64,000 nt of DNA. It comes from Bdellovibrio bacteriovorus str. Tiberius (GTDB lineage: Bacteria; Bdellovibrionota; Bdellovibrionia; Bdellovibrionales; Bdellovibrionaceae). The stretch is from positions 744,001-808,000 of the forward strand of contig NC_019567.1 of assembly GCF_000317895.1 (NCBI RefSeq), given 5' to 3'. Positions 10,027 to 51,765 of this stretch are shown piece by piece (within the stretch, counting starts at the first letter, position 1; each line of letters starts with the position of its first letter). The notes below the pieces were generated by a model that was not told the origin of the DNA, did no database searches, and saw nothing but the letters and a program-made list of their open reading frames with translations. Position numbers and translations under genes: made by a program.

Positions 10027-11448
10027 TTAGGCTTTCAAAGGTTTTTGAATGATATGGATCGCGTGACCCAAAGTCGCCTCAGCGGCTTCCATCATGGTTT
10101 CACCCAGAGTTGGGTGAGGGTGGATGGAAAGAGCCAGGTCTTCGATACGAGCGCCCATTTCAATCGCCAGAACTGCTTCAGAGATCAAGTTGGAAGCTTC
10201 CGGACCGACGATGTGAACGCCCAACAATACGTGGGTTTTCTTATCAGCGATCATTTTCACGAAACCGTCTGTTTCCATCATGCTCACCGCGCGGCCGTTG
10301 GCTGCGAACGGGAACTTGCTGATCAGAAGATCTGTGTGACCTTTGGCTTTTGCTTCAGCTTCAGTCATGCCGGCTGCTGCGATTTCAGGATCCGTGAAGA
10401 CAACAGCTGGAACTGTTTTCGCATCGTAAACACGGTTATGGCCCGCGATCACTTCAGCAACAAGGACACCTTCATGGGATGCTTTGTGCGCCAGCATTGG
10501 CTGACCACAGATATCACCGATAGCGAAGATGTTTGAAACATTCGTGCGGCGTTGAGCATCGACTTTCACGAAGCCACGCTCGTCAACAGCAATGCCAGCC
10601 GCTTTCAGATTCGCCTGATCGCCATTTGGACGACGGCCTACGGTTACAAGGATTTTGTCGCATTTAACAACTTCGTCTTTGCCGTTGATCTCGACAGTGA
10701 CTTCGTAACCGTCTTTGACTTTTTTCTGACCTTTGGCTTTTGCTCCGTAAAGAACATTCACGCCCGCTTTAGTCAGTTTGCGAGTCACGATCTGAGCGCA
10801 ATCCGGATCAACCACGCCCGCTAGCAATGCTGTCTGAGCTTCAATCACAGTCACTTCAGTGCCCAACTTACGCAGGTAAGAAGAGATTTCCAGACCGATG
10901 TAACCACCACCGATAACCGCCACGCGCTTAGGGATGGTGTCGAACGCCAATGCGCCCGTGGAAGAACAGATATCTTTTTCGTCGAATTTGAAACCAGGGA
11001 TTTCAATCGGACGGGAACCTGTTGCCACGATGAAGTATTTCGCCTGAACTGCTTCAGTGCCGGCAGAAGACTTCACAGAGATTTCTTTGGAGGTCTTGAA
11101 TTCAGCTTCACCCTTGATGATGGTGACGCCATAACCTTTAAGAAGCTGGTTCACACCGCCGGACATCTTGTCAGAAACGGATTGTTTCCATTTCACAAGT
11201 TGTTTCATGTCCACGTCGATGCCACCTTTGATGTTCAAGCCCATTTCTTTGAAATTGTGCTGAGCTTTGTGCAAAAGGTGAGTCGCAGTGATCATGGCTT
11301 TGGACGGGATACAACCCACGTTCAAGCACACGCCACCCAGGAATTCACGTTCGATAACTGCTGTTTTAAAACCAAGTTGTGCGGAACGGATCGCAGCCAC
11401 ATAACCGCCCGGACCCGCACCAATAACTACTACGTCAAAATTTTGCAT
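10027..11448 (-). CDS. lpd: Dihydrolipoyl dehydrogenase (E3)
   Basis: A 473-residue FAD-dependent disulfide reductase that reoxidises dihydrolipoyl groups on E2 using NAD. Visible signatures are the N-terminal FAD-binding GAGPGGYVAA, the redox-active disulfide GGVCLNVGCIPSK, the NAD-binding GGGYIGLE and the catalytic HPHPTLGE near the C terminus. It lies 66 bases downstream of the E2 gene in the same direction, so they form one unit. No E1 gene is next to them, so E3 may serve several 2-oxoacid complexes. GGAGA precedes the start. Confidence 0.96.
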   Translation of the reverse strand: MQNFDVVVIGAGPGGYVAAIRSAQLGFKTAVIEREFLGGVCLNVGCIPSKAMITATHLLHKAQHNFKEMGLNIKGGIDVDMKQLVKWKQSVSDKMSGGVNQLLKGYGVTIIKGEAEFKTSKEISVKSSAGTEAVQAKYFIVATGSRPIEIPGFKFDEKDICSSTGALAFDTIPKRVAVIGGGYIGLEISSYLRKLGTEVTVIEAQTALLAGVVDPDCAQIVTRKLTKAGVNVLYGAKAKGQKKVKDGYEVTVEINGKDEVVKCDKILVTVGRRPNGDQANLKAAGIAVDERGFVKVDAQRRTNVSNIFAIGDICGQPMLAHKASHEGVLVAEVIAGHNRVYDAKTVPAVVFTDPEIAAAGMTEAEAKAKGHTDLLISKFPFAANGRAVSMMETDGFVKMIADKKTHVLLGVHIVGPEASNLISEAVLAIEMGARIEDLALSIHPHPTLGETMMEAAEATLGHAIHIIQKPLKA

Positions 11449-11470
11449 AATAAATCTCCAATTAAGTCCA

Positions 11471-11511
11471 GCTGAAACACCTGCCGGTGCCTCAGCCTCC
11501 TCCGGCGAGCC
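11471..11511 (-). other. Intercistronic hairpins between E2 and lpd
   Basis: The 66-base gap holds two adjacent inverted repeats: GCTGA/TCAGC enclosing CACC/GGTG, then CCGGC/GCCGG. There is no T-run, so they are more likely mRNA processing or stability elements than a terminator. Confidence 0.4.
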
Positions 11512-11514
11512 GGC

Positions 11515-13134
11515 TTAAATCAGCTCCACCAATAGTTTGCCTGGATTTTCGATGCGGCCGATGAAGGCAGCAAGGAATCTTGCAGCCACAGCGCCGTCGA
11601 TCAAACGGTGATCGGCAGTCATTGTGTAGTTCATAACTTTAATCGCGGAAACCTGGCCGTTTTTCAGAACCACTTTTTCGTCGATTTTGTACATGCCCAG
11701 GATCGCCACTTCAGGGTGGTTGATCACAGGAGTCGCATAAGTGCCACCGATAGAACCGATGTTCGTCACAGTGATGGTTGCACCCTTCATTTCATCCGGT
11801 TTCAACTTGCCGTCACGAGCACGCTTGGAAAGATCCAGGATCTCTTTGGAGATTTCCAGGATGGATTTCTGGTCTGCGTTTTTGATCACTGGAACGACAA
11901 GGCCGTTTGGAGTGTCGGCTGCGAAGCCCAGGTTGAAGTACTTTTTGTAAACGATTTCGCCAGCTGCATCGTCGATGGATGCATTGAACATCGGGAATTC
12001 GCGGATCGTTGCAATCAAGGCCTTCATAACGATAGGAAGGTAAGTGATCTTCGTGCCGTTTTTCTCTGCGTGTTCTTTCAGGCTTTCGCGAAGAGCAACC
12101 ATCGCATCCACTTTCGCTTCATCCATGATGGTGAAGTGCGGGATCACGTGCTTGGAACGCTGCATGTTTTCAGCGATTTTCTTACGGATACCGATCAGAG
12201 GAACGCGCTCTTCAGCTGCGCCCGCCGGGCCCTGGTAAGAAGGCTTAGGAATAGACATGGTGGCGGAAGCCGCGGATTGCTGAGGTTTCGCCGCAGCTGA
12301 ACCAGCGCCGCCGTTGGAAGACATGACATCTTCACGAGTCACGCGACCTGCAAGACCAGTACCGGAAAGGGAATTGATATCAACGCCCATTTCACGAGCC
12401 AGACGACGAGTCGCCGGAGTCGCCAATACTTTGGAGTCTGCCACAGGTGGGAAGATGTCGCTGGAAGCAGTCGCCACTGGTGCTGCTTTGGCGGCGGGAG
12501 CCGCGGAGTGTGCAGGCGCAGACTGCACTGGACCAGCACTTGGAGCCGCTTTCGGAGCTGCCGCGCCACCTGCACCCTCAAGGATGATCATGGTGGAACC
12601 GACTTTGACTACGTCGCCGGATTTGAATTTCAATTCTTTTACAACACCAGCCACTGGAGTCGGAACTTCCACAGTCGCTTTGTCAGTCAGAACTTCAGCA
12701 ATCGCCTGATCCGCTTTTACAGAGTCACCTGGTTTTACCAACCATTTAACAAGTTCGCCTTCAGTCACGCCCTCGCCCAGTTCAGGCAATTTCACGTCTT
12801 GAGCTTTACCACCACCACCTGCAGCCGGAGCTGGAGTGGAAGCTGCAGGAGCCGGAGCCGCCGCCGCTGGTTGAGCGGCTGCCGGTTTTGCAGCGCCTGC
12901 ACCATCAAGAGTGATCATAGTCGCGCCGACTTTTACTACGTCGCCGGATTTGAATTTAAGATCTTTTACGACACCCGCAACCGGTGACGGAACCTCTACC
13001 GTTGCTTTGTCAGTCAATACTTCTGCGATAGCCTGGTCAGCTTTGACCGCATCGCCTGGTTTTACCAACCATTTTACCAATTCACCTTCAGTAACGCCTT
13101 CTCCAAGCTCGGGCAGTTTCACATCAGTTGCCAT
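11515..13134 (-). CDS. 2-oxoacid dehydrogenase E2 with two lipoyl domains
   Basis: A 539-residue dihydrolipoamide acyltransferase. Order: lipoyl domain 1 (about 2-78), Ala/Pro linker, lipoyl domain 2 (about 114-190), Ala/Pro linker, peripheral subunit-binding domain (ATPATRRLAREMGVDI), and the catalytic domain ending in DHRLIDGAVAARF with the catalytic His and Asp. Each lipoyl domain has the lipoylated Lys in LTDKATVEVP. The acyl specificity (pyruvate or branched-chain) cannot be read from this sequence. The ATG at 13134 begins the usual MATDVKLPELGEG; an ATG at 13161 is an alternative. It is followed by lpd; E1 is absent from the window. Confidence 0.93.
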   Translation of the reverse strand: MATDVKLPELGEGVTEGELVKWLVKPGDAVKADQAIAEVLTDKATVEVPSPVAGVVKDLKFKSGDVVKVGATMITLDGAGAAKPAAAQPAAAAPAPAASTPAPAAGGGGKAQDVKLPELGEGVTEGELVKWLVKPGDSVKADQAIAEVLTDKATVEVPTPVAGVVKELKFKSGDVVKVGSTMIILEGAGGAAAPKAAPSAGPVQSAPAHSAAPAAKAAPVATASSDIFPPVADSKVLATPATRRLAREMGVDINSLSGTGLAGRVTREDVMSSNGGAGSAAAKPQQSAASATMSIPKPSYQGPAGAAEERVPLIGIRKKIAENMQRSKHVIPHFTIMDEAKVDAMVALRESLKEHAEKNGTKITYLPIVMKALIATIREFPMFNASIDDAAGEIVYKKYFNLGFAADTPNGLVVPVIKNADQKSILEISKEILDLSKRARDGKLKPDEMKGATITVTNIGSIGGTYATPVINHPEVAILGMYKIDEKVVLKNGQVSAIKVMNYTMTADHRLIDGAVAARFLAAFIGRIENPGKLLVELI

Positions 13135-44441: not shown

Positions 44442-45752
44442 CTACTTCTTGGAAAGGGTCACAACCGGGGCGTTGGCTTCTGTCAGGTAAGAGTTTTGAT
44501 CAAACGGCAGCGCCAGAATTTCAGTGTATTGAATTTCTTTCGGGCCGGAACGTTTGTTGATCAGCTGACTGATTTTATTTTTGATCATTTGTGTGGCCAC
44601 ACCACGGTCAGAACTGCTCTGATCCATATCTGTGTGCAAAAGAATCGCAAAATAGAATTCCCCCTCTTTGGTGGAAATAGAACCTGCCAATGTCTTGGCT
44701 TTGTTCACAGTTCCGGTCTTGGCGATCATGGCTCCTGCGGCGTTGCCCCCGAAATTATCCACGGTAGAGTCATTGTCTTTGTTAGCTACGGAAAGCACGT
44801 CGCTTAACTTGTAGCCCTTGGCTTCCAGGGATTTGTTCAGCGTGTACAGTGTTTTGATCATGGTTTCGCAAGTGGCTTCATTATAGATCGGCTTGGCGGT
44901 GGTGCCTTCGTTGTTGCCGGATCCGTTATGGAAGACGATCTGGTTCTGATCCGCTTTCAATGTCGCCGCGGCAAACGTGTTGAACGCGGCCGTGCCACCC
45001 AGATTCCAGTACAGATTGTCAGCGATATAGTTGTTGGACTGGTTATTCATGCGCTTCAGGATCGTGCGTAATGGAGCCGATTGCAGAACCACGCTGCCCG
45101 TGTATTTGTCTTTTTTGTAGCTGACCTTAGGCAGGAAGGAAATATTGCGCACTTCCAGTGCTGGCTTTTCCAGCATAAAGACTTTGGCTTTGGTGGCTTT
45201 TTCACGCAGCTTGCTGTACATCGAACGGTTGATAGCGGTGGAAAAAGACTCTTTCAGATTCTTGATCACGGCTTCGGCCTGCTGTTCAATGGTTTCATAA
45301 CGTGGAGTCACGCCGCCAATACGGGGGGACTCTTCCGCCAGCCAATCCAGCAGGAAGTTTTCGTCAAAGGTCAGGTTTTCAATCTTCGTGACCTTCATGC
45401 GGTTCAATTCAGAAATCAGGAAATAACTTAAGTTACGACCGAAGATAGGATCACGGCTGCCTTCAACATGCAGATCCATGGAGCCGTTGGCTGTCGGGGT
45501 CAGGTGCAAAACTGTTTTATGGCGATAGTCGACACCCAGTTTTTCAATCGCCCACAAAGTCGTGATCACCTTGGAAATAGAGGCCAACGGAAACTTCTTT
45601 TGCATGTCTCCTTCGCCTTCCACCTTGCCAGCGGCGGCGGCGGCTTTCATATGGCATACGGAATTGACATAAACCTTGGCAGAGGCCGAAGAGGCCATCA
45701 AAACAGGTGCAGCCAGGGCTGCCAGGATACCAAGTTTAAATGTTGAAGCCAT
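44442..45752 (-). CDS. dacB: D-alanyl-D-alanine carboxypeptidase/endopeptidase (DacB/PBP4 class)
   Basis: A 436-residue exported S13 peptidase. Catalytic motifs are SISK (58-61), SNN (239-241) and KTG (345-347). The gap between the first two is about 180 residues, while it is about 240 in E. coli PBP4, so an accessory domain appears shortened or missing. In Bdellovibrio, DacB enzymes of this kind round up prey cells by cutting prey wall cross-links; this gene may be such an enzyme, which cannot be decided from sequence alone. It is single and ends next to a convergent gene. Confidence 0.88.
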   Translation of the reverse strand: MASTFKLGILAALAAPVLMASSASAKVYVNSVCHMKAAAAAGKVEGEGDMQKKFPLASISKVITTLWAIEKLGVDYRHKTVLHLTPTANGSMDLHVEGSRDPIFGRNLSYFLISELNRMKVTKIENLTFDENFLLDWLAEESPRIGGVTPRYETIEQQAEAVIKNLKESFSTAINRSMYSKLREKATKAKVFMLEKPALEVRNISFLPKVSYKKDKYTGSVVLQSAPLRTILKRMNNQSNNYIADNLYWNLGGTAAFNTFAAATLKADQNQIVFHNGSGNNEGTTAKPIYNEATCETMIKTLYTLNKSLEAKGYKLSDVLSVANKDNDSTVDNFGGNAAGAMIAKTGTVNKAKTLAGSISTKEGEFYFAILLHTDMDQSSSDRGVATQMIKNKISQLINKRSGPKEIQYTEILALPFDQNSYLTEANAPVVTLSKK

Positions 45753-46022
45753 ACGTCCTCCTTTGCCGCGTTTTCGGCGACCGACTGGCAGAGTTCATGT
45801 TTCATGCCGGGGTCAATTTCAATGAGTCAGATCCGAGGGGCAGTTATAGGGCCTTTTACGTCTAAAGTGACGGAAATTGGCAGTCAATTTGTCAATTGCC
45901 ATAGCCGGAGATTGCGGCCCGGAAAGGGCAATTAAGTCTTCGTCATTCTGTTTTATTTTGGTTGTGATCAAGGGGCAAAGACTGACAATGATCGTCTCTT
46001 TAGACGCTTCCGGGGGAAGAGT

Positions 46023-46706
46023 ATGTTGGATTTTTCTGTTCTTAACTCATCATTTGCCAATCCGACGTGGATTTCAATCATCTATGCCTTTTTGCTCAGT
46101 TTCATTCTGGGGACGGCCTTGGCTGTGGCCTATGTGAAGACCTTTCGGGGACTGTCTTATTCGTTGAATTTCCTGCACGGCCTGGTTCTTTTGCCGATCG
46201 TTATTGCAATTGCGATGCAGGCCATTGGGGATAACGTTGCTCGCGGGATCGGAATGATCGGGGCCTTGTCCTTGCTCCGATTCCGCACGAACGTCAAAGA
46301 CCCCCGCGATATGTTCTTTATTTTTGCTTCCTTGGCTGTGGGTCTGGCTTCCGGGGTTCATGCCTATGGCATCGCCATTTTGGGAACGTTCTGTTTTATT
46401 CTGGCGCTGACTGTGCTGCAAAAATCCCCCTTCGCTGCGGGTCCGCAGTTCGATGGTCTGTTGCGTTTGAATTTGTCTCGGTCAGGGCAGGATCAGCGCG
46501 AAGTCGAAGGCGTGCTGGAAAAATCCTGCCGTCACTTTGCATTGGCCACGATCCGGGAAATGGGGCAGGGCGAGCGTCTGGATTATTCTTATCAGGTGCG
46601 TTTAAAGCCCCGTCAGACTTCCGCAGAGCTTGTTGAAGAGCTGGGGCGTATTTCTTCCGTGCGCGGCCTGAACTTTATGAATCAAGAATCCGTGATCGAG
46701 GTGTAA
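46023..46706 (+). CDS. DUF4956 membrane protein, partner of VTC polymerases
   Basis: A 227-residue protein with about four membrane segments (residues 15-130, e.g. IIYAFLLSFILGTALAVAYV) and a soluble C-terminal domain. The segment MIGALSLLRFRTNVKDPRDMFFIFASLAVG is the DUF4956 signature. DUF4956 genes sit beside VTC-domain polyphosphate polymerases in many bacteria, as here three genes downstream. The GGGGGAAG before the ATG is strong. First gene of the four-gene unit at 46.0-50.4 kb. Confidence 0.88.
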   Translation: MLDFSVLNSSFANPTWISIIYAFLLSFILGTALAVAYVKTFRGLSYSLNFLHGLVLLPIVIAIAMQAIGDNVARGIGMIGALSLLRFRTNVKDPRDMFFIFASLAVGLASGVHAYGIAILGTFCFILALTVLQKSPFAAGPQFDGLLRLNLSRSGQDQREVEGVLEKSCRHFALATIREMGQGERLDYSYQVRLKPRQTSAELVEELGRISSVRGLNFMNQESVIEV

Positions 46707-46707
46707 G

Positions 46708-48459
46708 GTGAAACTAGCTGACGTCGTCGGGACCGAGAACCGTTTTCTATTGGGCTGCTGGAGTGCGGCCGTGGTTCTGGTATTGATGTTGGGACTGGTG
46801 CTGGGGTCTGATCCTGTCAGCATTCTGGGCGTTGCTGAATCACGTGAATTTCAGGTTAACTTCGACAGCCCCGTAGAAATCAAACACATCTATGTGCTTC
46901 CCAGTCAGATTGTGCGTAAAGGGGATCTGCTGGCGGAATTGGGCCAGTCCGAGTGGGAATCCCAGTTGCGTGTTTTGAAAAGCCGCTATGATAAACTGAA
47001 TGCCGAAATGCACCTGCGCCAGCAACTGGCCGGAGTCGTCAAAGATCTGGGACATTTGGCTCCGCAGGCGGATCCTTTGCTGGTCGAATTGGAAGACGCC
47101 CGCCGGGAAATGGCTTTGATCGAAGGCCGCATGAAGAATCTTTTTGTTTTTGCCGAAGTTGACGGCGCCGTGGGCGCGGTGAATTTCAAAAATGGAGAAA
47201 AGGCGCCGGCCTTTGCCCCCCTGATCACGCTGGTCCCCCTGAATCCCACTTACGTAAATGGCTATATCAATGAAAACCTTTCATCTACGTTGTCCGTGGG
47301 GCAGGTGGTGGAAGTCAGTTCTGCCGGAGGCAAAGTCGTGCGGGGCTCGGTGGTCAGCATCGGTTCGCGCATCGTGCAGATTCCGGAGCGTCTGTTAAGG
47401 ATTCAAACCCTGCCCGCTTGGGGACGTGAAGCCGTGATCAAGATTCCTCGTGCGAATGAATTCCTGCTGGGGGAAAAAGTTTTTGTTCAGAAAAAATGGA
47501 GTTTGTCTCTGCTAAGCCTGGCCAATGCCGACGAAGCAACCCAAGCCCAGGAAGCTCAGCAACAGGATCCACGCGACATGGATATTCCTTTGAATATTGT
47601 AGAGACCTTCAAGCCGGAGATGTCGGGTGTGGTCTTTGTGCCCGAGCTGAAACAGTTTGTTCTGGTTTCTGATGATTATCCTGAAGACCGCCCGGTGCTG
47701 TTCCTGATGAATGAGCAGGGGCAGATTCAACCCCATCAGATCCAGCTTTCCGGATTGCCAGTGATGGCGGACATTGAGTCAATGTCGGTACAGGGCGAGC
47801 ACTTGTATTTGCTCAGTTCCATGTCGGCGACCAAAAAAGGAAAGCTGAAGGAAGAACGACAGATCTTCGCACAGATCAAGCGCAATGGCCTGCGCTACAG
47901 CGTGGAACATCATGTGGATTTGCGTAAACCCCTGTTGCTGGCCCTGAAAGAATCGCAAGATCCGGTGTTGAAGTCCATCTATGAAGCTGATTTGAAACTG
48001 ACCAAAGAGGGCTTTGAGGTCGAAGGCCACGCCATTGAAAACAAAGATTTGTACCTGTCACTGAAAGGCCCCGTGCTTCATCGCAACGAGGGATTGATTC
48101 TTAAGGTGTCGGACTTTGCTTCGGTCTTTGACGGTGTTTTAAAACCAGCCCAAGTGACCCTCGCGGCGCGATTTGAGATGAAACTGCCTCATCAGGATGT
48201 TGAATTGGTGCTGACAGATCTGATCAAGCAGGGCGATGCCTTCTATCTGGCATCATCCTGTCGCGGGGCTTCGTGCAGTGCCATCTGGAAGATGACGGCA
48301 GGTCAGAATGCACCCGAGCTGTTGCATGAATTCCGCATGCGTCATCTGGAGGGCTTGGCACTTCACCCGGACATGCATCAGATGTTTGCCGTCTTTGATA
48401 GCAAAAGCTCCAGTCAGTATGCCGTCGTCAGTCTTGTCGCCGATAAAAGGACCCCGTGA
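46708..48459 (+). CDS. HlyD-type adaptor fused to a propeller-like domain
   Basis: A 583-residue protein: short cytoplasmic start, one membrane segment (AAVVLVLMLGLVLG), a HlyD/membrane-fusion-type part (about 40-270) with lipoyl half-motifs (LPSQIVRKGDLLAELGQSEW and VFAEVDGAVGAVNFKNGE) flanking a coiled coil, and a C-terminal region (about 290-583) that looks like a beta-propeller (SGVVFVPELKQFVLVSDD, HLEGLALHPDMHQMF). The last part resembles phytase-like or DUF3616 domains. It probably links the inner-membrane DUF4956 protein to the TolC-like protein. Start GTG, two bases after the preceding stop. Confidence 0.7.
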   Translation: MKLADVVGTENRFLLGCWSAAVVLVLMLGLVLGSDPVSILGVAESREFQVNFDSPVEIKHIYVLPSQIVRKGDLLAELGQSEWESQLRVLKSRYDKLNAEMHLRQQLAGVVKDLGHLAPQADPLLVELEDARREMALIEGRMKNLFVFAEVDGAVGAVNFKNGEKAPAFAPLITLVPLNPTYVNGYINENLSSTLSVGQVVEVSSAGGKVVRGSVVSIGSRIVQIPERLLRIQTLPAWGREAVIKIPRANEFLLGEKVFVQKKWSLSLLSLANADEATQAQEAQQQDPRDMDIPLNIVETFKPEMSGVVFVPELKQFVLVSDDYPEDRPVLFLMNEQGQIQPHQIQLSGLPVMADIESMSVQGEHLYLLSSMSATKKGKLKEERQIFAQIKRNGLRYSVEHHVDLRKPLLLALKESQDPVLKSIYEADLKLTKEGFEVEGHAIENKDLYLSLKGPVLHRNEGLILKVSDFASVFDGVLKPAQVTLAARFEMKLPHQDVELVLTDLIKQGDAFYLASSCRGASCSAIWKMTAGQNAPELLHEFRMRHLEGLALHPDMHQMFAVFDSKSSSQYAVVSLVADKRTP

Positions 48460-49619
48460 TGCTTTTGTCTTGGATCCTTTTGGGGGGACTTTCTTCTTTT
48501 GCGGTGACGCCCGAGCAGGTATTAAAAACAGCCTGGTCCGACACGGCCTACACTTCGCAGGAAGAAATGCGCCCGACCGATTCCCGCAATCCCTTGCGCA
48601 ATGTCGAGGGTTTTGTCAGTGCTGAAAAAGAAGATGACAAAAATGAATACGAAGTCGGGCTGAAGTTTCAGTTCCGCTCGTGGCCGGAGTGGAAGCTGGG
48701 ACCCAATTCAGAACCGCGCAAGAAAGTTTTGAAAGAGGCTTCTTTGGCGTGGGCTCTTCATGAACGCTATTTGAATTTAATCTCGTATGAAATCAGTCAG
48801 CAGAAAATGGCGGTGTTGAACAGTTCCATGAAATTGTCCGAGGGTTATTTAAAGGCGCAAAGTCTTTCCTTGCGGGCGGGGCGCACGTCGACTAAGTCCT
48901 TCCTGGGGGCGCAAGGGGACATTTATAAGCTGAAACGCCTGGAAAGTGTGATTGCGCAGGAAAACAAACTGGCGGTCAAGAAACTAAAATCCTGGGTTCC
49001 GCAATGGGGGGAAAGCCCGCTGGAAGGCTTTGATCTGATCAGTGTGCAAGAGGTGCTTGATTCATTGGGCAGCCAGCCTGCACCGGAAGCTTCTTTGACG
49101 GCGCGAATATCAGAGACTGAGTTTAAAGACATTTCCCGGGAACTGGAAATTCTGCGCGGACGTGAAGATCAGTGGGTCAAGGGACTGGATGTTTCCCAAA
49201 CTCGCAAAGAAGATGAAGTCGGTTACAAGGTCGAACTGACTTTGCAGCTTCCGCATCTTGGGTCGGATGATCTGTCCCGGCAAAAACAGAATGAATTGAT
49301 TCTAAAAAAAGCCCTGAAACAAAAGGAAGCCGAAGACAGCAAAGACCGCCTGCTAAGTTTGAAGAATCAAATTCAGAGCCTGGCGGGGCTTTATAAGATG
49401 ACCAGTCAGGGCCTGAAAGAAAGTCAGAAAGTGAAAGCTCAAGACACTTTGTCAGTACTTGAGGGCCGCCTGTTGCAGGAACAGACCGAGTTGGATTTGC
49501 TCAGCCAGCAGCAGGAGATTCTGACTTTATTTGTCGAGTACCTGCTGGAAAGTGAAAGGTTGGCTGCCGAGCCCGCCAAAAACCATCTTAGTAAAACCCA
49601 GAAGGTGGTGGCGCTGTGA
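48456..49619 (+). CDS. TolC-like outer-membrane factor
   Basis: A 387-residue exported protein with a signal peptide (MMLLSWILLGGLSSFA) and long heptad-like helices (ALHERYLNLISYEISQQKMAVLNSS; KAEDSKDRLLSLKNQIQSL-type). The repeated coiled-coil halves and beta-rich segments (VGLKFQFR, YKVELTLQLP) fit the TolC fold, though the similarity is structural, not by clear motif. Overlaps the adaptor gene by four bases and the VTC gene by four bases, so all four genes are translationally coupled. Confidence 0.65.
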   Translation: MMLLSWILLGGLSSFAVTPEQVLKTAWSDTAYTSQEEMRPTDSRNPLRNVEGFVSAEKEDDKNEYEVGLKFQFRSWPEWKLGPNSEPRKKVLKEASLAWALHERYLNLISYEISQQKMAVLNSSMKLSEGYLKAQSLSLRAGRTSTKSFLGAQGDIYKLKRLESVIAQENKLAVKKLKSWVPQWGESPLEGFDLISVQEVLDSLGSQPAPEASLTARISETEFKDISRELEILRGREDQWVKGLDVSQTRKEDEVGYKVELTLQLPHLGSDDLSRQKQNELILKKALKQKEAEDSKDRLLSLKNQIQSLAGLYKMTSQGLKESQKVKAQDTLSVLEGRLLQEQTELDLLSQQQEILTLFVEYLLESERLAAEPAKNHLSKTQKVVAL

Positions 49620-50401
49620 GTGGACCGGTATCTCCGCTGGCGCTGGAGCGGTATGAATTGAAGTATCTGATCCCGGCAAGTCTGGTAGAACCCATTTCGC
49701 GCTTTGTGGAAACCTATTGCGAAATGGATTACTATTCCACTGTTTCGCCGGACAAGCACTACACCATCAACAGTCTTTATCTGGATACGCCCAGCTTATA
49801 CCTGCTGCGGTTTAAAGAATCTGCCAACGCCTTTAACTTTAATATGCGCATTCGGTCCTATGGTGATAACCCCAAGCCACCTTATTTCTTTGAGATTAAA
49901 TACAAGCTGCGGGAATTTGTGCGCAAGAAGCGCGCGCTGGTCCATGACGAAAACTGGGTGGATATTCTGGATTGGGGAGTCATCCCGGATCATATTCAAG
50001 GAAGTTCCCACGGAAATCTGGAAGAGTTTATCCGGATGAAGATGACCTATAACGTGGGGCCGGTGATTTTGACTCAGTACCGCCGCAAGGCTTATCTGTC
50101 GGTTGTGGACGACTATGCTCGCGTCACCTTTGACCGGGACCTGCGCTTTCAGGAAATGAACGAATGGCGCGTGCGACCGGACAGTAATTTATTAAGCCAC
50201 TATGATCATCCGGACTCTTTTGAAGAACCAGGGTGCAATGTCATTCTGGAATTGAAGTGCGAAAAGAAGATCCCTTATTGGATGGTGGACCTGATCCGGC
50301 GTTTTGAACTGGAAAGCGGCTCGTTCTCGAAATTCGGAAATTCCATGACAACCTTGTTGGGAGTGCCCGAGGTTTTAGCCCCGGGCCCTTTGTATCTTTA
50401 A
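49616..50401 (+). CDS. VTC-domain polyphosphate polymerase
   Basis: A 261-residue cytoplasmic VTC domain. The substrate-binding tunnel motifs known from yeast Vtc4 are all visible: RYELKYLI, SLYLDT, RIRSYGDN, FFEIKYK, VRKKRALV, YRRKAYLSV, RVTFDRDLRF, ILELKC and SKFGNS. The family makes polyphosphate from ATP. Last gene of the unit with DUF4956, adaptor and TolC-like protein; the convergent kinase-like gene overlaps its end by four bases. GTG start within the preceding stop. Confidence 0.88.
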   Translation: MSGPVSPLALERYELKYLIPASLVEPISRFVETYCEMDYYSTVSPDKHYTINSLYLDTPSLYLLRFKESANAFNFNMRIRSYGDNPKPPYFFEIKYKLREFVRKKRALVHDENWVDILDWGVIPDHIQGSSHGNLEEFIRMKMTYNVGPVILTQYRRKAYLSVVDDYARVTFDRDLRFQEMNEWRVRPDSNLLSHYDHPDSFEEPGCNVILELKCEKKIPYWMVDLIRRFELESGSFSKFGNSMTTLLGVPEVLAPGPLYL

Positions 50402-51765
50402 TTGCTGCAAGGGGTGAGCGGGGGACGCGCCCCCGGCAGATAATTTTCCAGATCCAAGTCAAACTTCAGCTGACCTGTGCGACAGGTGCCGGTCAGGATT
50501 TCTTTGGCCTTGCTGGCATTGTCCTGTAAAGACCGATAGTCCTTGTCGGTAAAGAGCAGTTCTGTTTTGAAGTAGTCCTTGGTGGCAGGGGCTGCCAGTG
50601 ACTTTTCAAAAGCCATAAAGTAACGATAGGTCAGATAGCTCATATGACGGACTTTTTCCAGGACGCTGTAAGCTCGCATCATATTGTCTTTGATGACGCC
50701 ACAGTCGTTGTCCTTCAGGATCATTTCTTTTAAGACCACGGCCGTCCGTCCGGCCATTTGGCGTTTTTCTTCGGCCGGTATCACGATCTTTCCATCCACA
50801 AGTTCGGCGTCGGATTTAGAGCGCTCAATGCGATTGGTGGAAGGATTGATCGAATACCAATAGAACTTATAGTGAATGTTTCCGATGCGGTCCTGCTGGT
50901 TCATCAAGGTGTCGATCAGAACCATATCGGCGACGTCTTTCATTTGAATCACATCCTGGGCCACGCGGGTGAATTCCCCAGAGCCCACCAGTTGGGCGAC
51001 CGTTTTGGTGCTGGCGACCTTTAAGAAGGGCTTTTGTTTCAGGAAGCGCTGATAGCGGCTGTTGTATGTGCCTCGTCCACTGACGTCATTATAGACATTT
51101 TCATTCTTTACATTGTCAGAAAGTCCGCCGTAAAGCTGCGTGAAGGTGGTGTCCACCAGTTGGGGAAAGGCACGGGGATTTAGATGCATTTCCCCCAGTT
51201 TTCGCCAAGCCTGGGCAATAGTATCTGTCGAGTCACGCAGGGCGTGCACCGCCTTGTTGGTCAGCTGGCTGTGAACTTTCAAATCCATGGTGCGGATCAC
51301 TGATACAGGAACCCGGCCGACCCCGCCCAGAATGCGCGACATATGATAGTAGGCCAGAATCGATGGCGTATAAGAACAGGTGATGGTCTGTTTGAATTTC
51401 GCCTCGGTTTTAACGGACATTTTTTTTAGGTTGCAGTCTGAAGCATCAATGGCCTCTTTGCTGTAACTGGCATTCGGAGCCAGCAGCAAGACGCCAGGAT
51501 TGGTGGAGTTGTATTTCGGGCAGATGCCGACGGTGCGATAGAAGTCATAACCGCACAGCGTGCTTTCTTTACTGGTGTCATCGCTGCGATAGGCAGCGCC
51601 GGGCCACTTTTTTGGAACGACACAAAGTTCGCGCACACCATAGGGGGAAAAGTATTCGGTTCGCGTTTCGCCTTTAAGATTTCCAAGGTTGATGGCAACC
51701 GCATTGGAAAGGGGAATGATGACAGATAAAACAGCCGAAGTGCAGATTGCGACGAGCTTCATCAC
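50398..51765 (-). CDS. Secreted kinase-like protein (Fam20C/HipA/CotH-type signature)
   Basis: A 455-residue exported protein (signal peptide near MMKLVAICTSAVLSVIIPLSNAVA). Kinase-like landmarks are LAYYHMSRILGGVGRVPVSVI (helix and strand before the catalytic loop), LIDTLMNQQDRIGNIHY (catalytic DR..GN loop) and LKDNDCG (metal-binding DN.G). These match atypical kinases such as Fam20C and CotH, and some bacteria encode CotH next to VTC and DUF4956 genes. An N-terminal Lys/Glu pair is not certain. Substrate unknown. It is convergent with the VTC gene and divergent from the phosphatase-like gene. Confidence 0.6.
   Translation of the reverse strand: MMKLVAICTSAVLSVIIPLSNAVAINLGNLKGETRTEYFSPYGVRELCVVPKKWPGAAYRSDDTSKESTLCGYDFYRTVGICPKYNSTNPGVLLLAPNASYSKEAIDASDCNLKKMSVKTEAKFKQTITCSYTPSILAYYHMSRILGGVGRVPVSVIRTMDLKVHSQLTNKAVHALRDSTDTIAQAWRKLGEMHLNPRAFPQLVDTTFTQLYGGLSDNVKNENVYNDVSGRGTYNSRYQRFLKQKPFLKVASTKTVAQLVGSGEFTRVAQDVIQMKDVADMVLIDTLMNQQDRIGNIHYKFYWYSINPSTNRIERSKSDAELVDGKIVIPAEEKRQMAGRTAVVLKEMILKDNDCGVIKDNMMRAYSVLEKVRHMSYLTYRYFMAFEKSLAAPATKDYFKTELLFTDKDYRSLQDNASKAKEILTGTCRTGQLKFDLDLENYLPGARPPLTPCSN

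Follow-up and report, generated by a model that had tools for sequence, protein, structure and literature searches.

A four-gene cassette of Bdellovibrio bacteriovorus, conserved across bacterial phyla, unites a VTC polyphosphate polymerase and a DUF4956 protein with a proposed HlyD-TolC-type duct and is a candidate route for polyphosphate export

We report here on a cassette of four genes, found on the plus strand at positions 46023-50401 of a 64,000-nucleotide stretch of the Bdellovibrio bacteriovorus str. Tiberius genome (contig NC_019567.1, positions 744,001 to 808,000), referred to as the window; the host genome is a single contig of 3,988,594 bases. The genes had been predicted, from the bare sequence, to overlap or nearly touch, and the layout of the open reading frames agrees with this: a 1-base gap separates the DUF4956 and adaptor genes, and 4-base overlaps join the adaptor to the TolC-like gene and the latter to the VTC gene. 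The features of the cassette are as follows.

45753-46022: gap of 270 bases between the cassette and a divergent S13/PBP4-like gene (gene layout)
46023-46706, plus strand: DUF4956 membrane protein, 227 aa (Pfam PF16316)
46708-48459, plus strand: HlyD/MacA-type periplasmic adaptor with C-terminal beta-propeller, 583 aa (HlyD_3, AlphaFold2, Foldseek)
46732-46803, plus strand: single N-terminal transmembrane helix of the adaptor (residues 9-32 predicted helix; hydropathy segment 11-43)
46819-47493, plus strand: adaptor part, residues 38-262, with alpha-hairpin at residues 81-143 (predicted secondary structure)
47557-48438, plus strand: beta-propeller, residues 284-577 (AlphaFold2 model, structure matches)
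48456-49619, plus strand: TolC-type outer-membrane factor with signal peptide, 387 aa (predicted fold)
49616-50401, plus strand: VTC polyphosphate polymerase domain, cytosolic, 261 aa (PF09359)

The 270-base gap is the probable place of the cassette promoter; a consensus search for promoters around the cassette, this gap included, gave nothing above chance, and the same result was obtained for terminators and Rfam families. Beyond the gap lies the divergent gene of the S13/PBP4-like peptidase (44442-45752). On the opposite side, a convergent gene (50398-51765), encoding a secreted protein of 455 aa with no Pfam family, extends over the VTC stop, with an overlap of 4 bases, and across most of the genus it stays next to the cassette. 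A functional tie of the cassette to either neighbor was considered and discarded, the adjacency being insufficiently conserved. VTC and DUF4956 are present in one copy each in the genome, which also encodes a PPK1, so that VTC is not required for the ordinary internal polyphosphate store; searches of the same genome found no PPK2 and no match to CotH.

The protein encoded by the last gene matches PF09359 with 173 bits (cut-off 23), the domain spanning residues 12-247, and its profile matches yeast VTC4 structures with an E value of 1e-10. Three residues invariant in 30 sequences, R78, R80 and E212, align with R264, R266 and E426 of yeast VTC4, named as catalytic in PMC9911596. Within its 261 aa, the protein has neither the SPX domain nor the membrane helices of a eukaryotic-type VTC subunit, and hydropathy analysis detects no hydrophobic segment in it. 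To judge from its family and active-site residues, it would make polyphosphate from ATP.

The first gene encodes a protein matching PF16316 (50.3 bits, cut-off 30.6), with hydrophobic segments at approximately residues 11-41, 43-73 and 97-135, followed by a soluble C-terminal part, as indicated by hydropathy. Identity to relatives in various phyla ranges from 41 to 89%, and 19 residues, R86 and R88 among them, are invariant. A weak match to MgtC was also recorded; MgtC proteins have a role in Mg2+ and phosphate homeostasis. We propose that the DUF4956 protein is an inner-membrane channel or a docking subunit for VTC.

The two remaining proteins were modelled with AlphaFold2, the input alignments comprising 46 adaptors in one case and 53 TolC-like proteins in the other, all from loci of the genome scan described below. 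The adaptor scores 26.4 bits against HlyD_3 (cut-off 22.2), and its model, propeller included (pLDDT 88.9), is matched by Foldseek to MacA (3fpp, E value 5e-11), EmrA and MexA; family match and model together display the barrel-sandwich, hairpin, beta-barrel and N-terminal anchor of a membrane fusion protein. Residues G219, P226, R228, G239-E241 and G255-V258 are conserved in the 46-row alignment. The TolC-docking motif R-x3-L-x6-S, searched as a strict pattern, occurs in only 9 of the 46 adaptors, which we count against export through a duct. The TolC-like protein of the window matches no Pfam family even at an E value of 1; among its 53 aligned relatives, 16 match the OEP profile, with a best E value of 5.7e-30. 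Its single-chain model (pLDDT 92.8) superimposes on E. coli TolC with Z scores of 21-22 over 360-376 residues (21.4 over 360 residues for 1ek9), as against 7.8 for the best unrelated fold. Residues 1-16 are probably cleaved as a signal peptide. The folds originally guessed for the HlyD-like and TolC-like proteins are thus both recovered in the models.

The propeller announced for the HlyD-like protein is likewise real: the model matches YjiK (Z score 20.1) and human apyrase (Z score 17.8), and relatives of the domain match the Phytase-like, SdiA-regulated and DUF3616 profiles; direct comparison of its sequence with those of solved structures gave matches at chance level only. Residues E304, S306, D355, E357 and E548 are conserved in all of 34 rows, E439 in 33, and position 503, S or T, is S in 32, a distribution which suggests, at the level of sequence, a central ion-binding site. 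The conserved S-E-E-S-E pattern is reminiscent of the Ca2+ site of human apyrase and may correspond to it. Adaptors come in a long form of about 580-690 aa, which bears the propeller, and a short form of about 276-400 aa, which does not; the core of the cassette is therefore made of adaptor, TolC, DUF4956 and VTC, the propeller being accessory. A product-binding role of the propeller is conjecture, given the number of cassettes from which the domain is absent.

A few observations concern the origin and the reading frame of this module. The linker between adaptor and propeller (47494-47556, KKWSLSLLSLANADEA) looks like a signal peptide, as would be left by the fusion of a formerly separate secreted propeller, and a free-standing relative, 31% identical over residues 291-565, is encoded in a genome of the same genus (G007, contig 1:288235-289047). 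In three Chitinispirillaceae contigs (L158:7620-7730, L162:7640-7720 and L169:3600-3680) the frame changes between adaptor and propeller at a run of 9-11 A, and the propeller has neither a good start codon nor a signal peptide of its own. Such a change may reflect programmed slippage, decay by frameshift or an error of assembly; as a slippage site, the A9 run of the UBP6/rumen loci was dismissed as unremarkable, given that AAA makes up 80-96% of the lysine codons there.

Genomic distribution indicates that the four genes are inherited together. VTC of this cassette was found in 20 of the 66 genomes of the family, where strong matches to DUF4956, TolC and VTC coincide in the same genomes; the adaptor search, which covered the genus, agrees with this pattern. 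Wherever the contig permits, family genomes with VTC keep the same four-gene order, with changing flanks. The sole exception to the all-or-none rule is a genome (G018) with three of the genes, in which TolC is cut, apparently by the contig end. In two genomes (G059 and G060) the VTC and the DUF4956 protein are distant ones, and the duct genes are missing. Within the genus, VTC, adaptor and DUF4956 are missing from 8 of the 24 genomes, three of which are single-contig assemblies of 99-100% completeness. Elsewhere in the phylum, exporter genes accompany VTC at 12 further loci and are absent from the other VTC loci fetched.

This distribution bears on the suggestion, made when the locus was first noticed, that exported polyphosphate could be an aid to predation, by chelating metals or helping to reshape the prey cell. 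In such a role it might act in concert with the adjacent PBP4-type peptidase. The divergent peptidase gene is, by gene order, probably the orthologue of HD100 Bd0816, a prey-rounding gene (PMC3276566), which speaks for this explanation. In most relatives, however, the peptidase gene lies apart from the cassette, the 8 genomes of the genus just mentioned do without the latter, and many carriers of the cassette belong to taxa for which predation is not known, Fibrobacterota and Desulfobacterota among them. We consequently abandon a general, predation-specific role, and regard a predation device as highly improbable.

To define the distribution beyond the phylum, the VTC alignment was run against 84,980 species genomes, yielding 80 loci. 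All four genes lie within 6.5 kb in 57 of these, and most of the remaining loci are broken at contig ends. The loci belong, as titled in the records, to Bdellovibrionota, Desulfobacterota, Fibrobacterota, Pseudomonadota, Calditrichota, Delongbacteria, Myxococcota, Campylobacterota (a partial contig) and unnamed rumen lineages, and the complete four-gene set is found in at least seven bacterial phyla. DUF4956 is located either first or after VTC, the latter arrangement being that of Myxococcota (VTC-DUF4956-HlyD-TolC). Conservation of gene order, put forward at the outset as a check, hence extends to relatives and well beyond them. Recurrence across phyla with differing flanks, together with all-or-none inheritance within the family, establishes that the four-gene unit is confirmed and not due to chance.

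Two further comparisons were made on the same material. In a tree built from 107 VTC domains, with a bootstrap not fully settled and several long branches outside the export-linked cluster, a well-supported branch consists of export-linked rows only (70 out of 70), and a wider one contains 76 out of 79; in this sequence tree, export-linked VTCs group apart from VTCs without exporters. Pairwise distances of the four proteins correlate at 0.85-0.92 over the 57 loci, much of which is expected from shared descent alone. That the genes are merely adjacent, brought together by operon drift with no joint function, is strongly disfavored by conservation across phyla, by all-or-none presence and by the clustering of VTCs, and we find this explanation scarcely credible.

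DUF4956 accompanies VTC also where the exporter is absent, an observation which cuts both ways. On one side, the pair may act alone, and adaptor and TolC may carry something else. The adaptor, the TolC-like protein and DUF4956 could export another substrate, be it a metal, some phosphorylated small molecule or a phospho-polymer of a different kind, with VTC supplying or sensing the substrate, or making local polyphosphate as a counter-ion or energy source; the weak likeness of DUF4956 to MgtC and the many substrates served by TolC ducts fit such a scheme. On the other, its pairing with VTC in the absence of an exporter implies that DUF4956 follows the polymerase rather than the duct, and the cassette has no further transporter or enzyme as a constant member. 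Export of another substrate is, in our judgement, unlikely, though of all the alternatives it retains the most weight.

A different role for the polymer is suggested by CotH kinase genes, present in 21 of the 80 scanned loci, some of them with lamin-tail domains. The product of VTC and DUF4956 might serve as phosphoryl donor for exported CotH-type kinases, or be attached to surface proteins, delivery being left to the duct. Pairs of VTC and DUF4956 are already known beside Gram-positive pel loci, in groups of CotH, polyphosphate polymerase and DUF4956 (PMC7112168), which share with the cassette the VTC-type polymerase next to DUF4956. These groups differ, however, in lying beside pel genes, along with CotH and DUF4832, and adaptor and TolC are not listed there. 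Three quarters of the scanned loci have no CotH nearby, and its absence from the genome of the window rules out such a function here, unless the organism has an acceptor of another kind. Envelope phosphorylation as the role of the pair is, on balance, decidedly unlikely.

We consider it moderately probable that the four genes encode one envelope-spanning machine, in which cytoplasmic synthesis of polyphosphate drives its passage through DUF4956 and a HlyD-TolC duct. The cytosolic VTC domain would make the chain from ATP beneath DUF4956, which, by analogy with the channel of yeast VTC, would pass the growing chain across the inner membrane. The adaptor and the TolC-type factor, whose folds are predicted, would assemble into a duct leading from the inner membrane through the periplasm and the outer membrane. 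No ATPase is encoded in the cassette, so polymerization would supply the driving force and itself expel the chain, a mechanism already proposed for yeast VTC and for the synthase-dependent secretion of polysaccharides. The propeller would be an optional periplasmic module of the adaptor, perhaps with a part in binding divalent cations or in processing the polymer. Polyphosphate would thereby end up at the cell surface or beyond it, as a pool distinct from the internal store made by PPK1.

The coupling of synthesis to translocation in this make-and-export scheme has a precedent in the yeast VTC complex (Vtc1/Vtc3/Vtc4), whose polymerase domain belongs to the same family and has the equivalent catalytic residues, and for which synthesis in the cytosol is proposed to go hand in hand with transit through a channel in the membrane (PMC9911596). 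In contrast to the yeast complex, the VTC of the cassette has neither SPX domain nor membrane helices, the place of the Vtc1-type helices being taken by DUF4956, and the additional adaptor and outer-membrane factor would direct the product to the outside rather than to the vacuole. Cellulose, alginate and Pel secretion offer a second parallel, since there, too, synthesis is proposed to drive export along an envelope-spanning path, with a glycosyltransferase in place of VTC. The duct of these synthase-dependent systems is a TPR protein with a beta-barrel, whereas that of the cassette would be a HlyD-TolC one. The folds of adaptor and TolC are shared with MacAB-TolC, EmrAB-TolC and HlyBD-TolC, from which the cassette differs in having a polymer synthase and a small membrane protein instead of an ABC, MFS or RND pump gene, and in the propeller borne by its adaptor.

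The original prediction of a phosphopolymer exporter hence stands in part. VTC and DUF4956 do occur together with proteins that have the predicted folds of an adaptor and an outer-membrane factor, in conserved order, and VTC has residues equivalent to the catalytic ones of VTC4; the likeness to type I secretion, on the contrary, does not hold in detail. Lacking an ABC ATPase of its own, the cassette is not a type I secretion system, a judgement made within the cassette, as an ABC protein could be encoded elsewhere; the nearest ABC genes, from 52739 onward on the minus strand, resemble an amino-acid importer.

All the parts belong to known families, and what appears new is the joining of VTC and DUF4956 with HlyD and TolC, for which we found no description in a search falling short of most subscription journals and preprints. 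Within the same limits, nothing was found on extracellular polyphosphate export, or on the presumed neighboring locus tags. Polyphosphate occurs on the outside of some Gram-negative cells, such as those of Neisseria, and we know of no established route for its export to the surface. The cassette is a concrete, genetically simple candidate for such a route in many phyla, and offers the widespread bacterial VTC-DUF4956 pair a testable role; if the scheme is true, it adds a new class of polymer to envelope-spanning export, together with a mechanism that needs no dedicated ATPase, and direct release of internally made polyphosphate to the exterior may be a habit of many bacteria. A broader version, which we hold to be quite unlikely, sees in the cassette a widespread ATPase-free secretion machine, in which polymerization drives a phosphopolymer to the surface and, near CotH genes, the polymer acts as extracellular phosphoryl donor for kinases where ATP is scarce.

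Two further loci deserve separate mention. In a gammaproteobacterium, a gene for a PHO4-type phosphate transporter is inserted between the TolC-like and VTC genes (L141:3727-5319), faintly hinting, at this one locus, at a link with phosphate. Another genome (G048) carries, besides an intact cassette on a different contig, a second VTC copy broken by stop codons (L035; contig 133, approximately 11123-11813).
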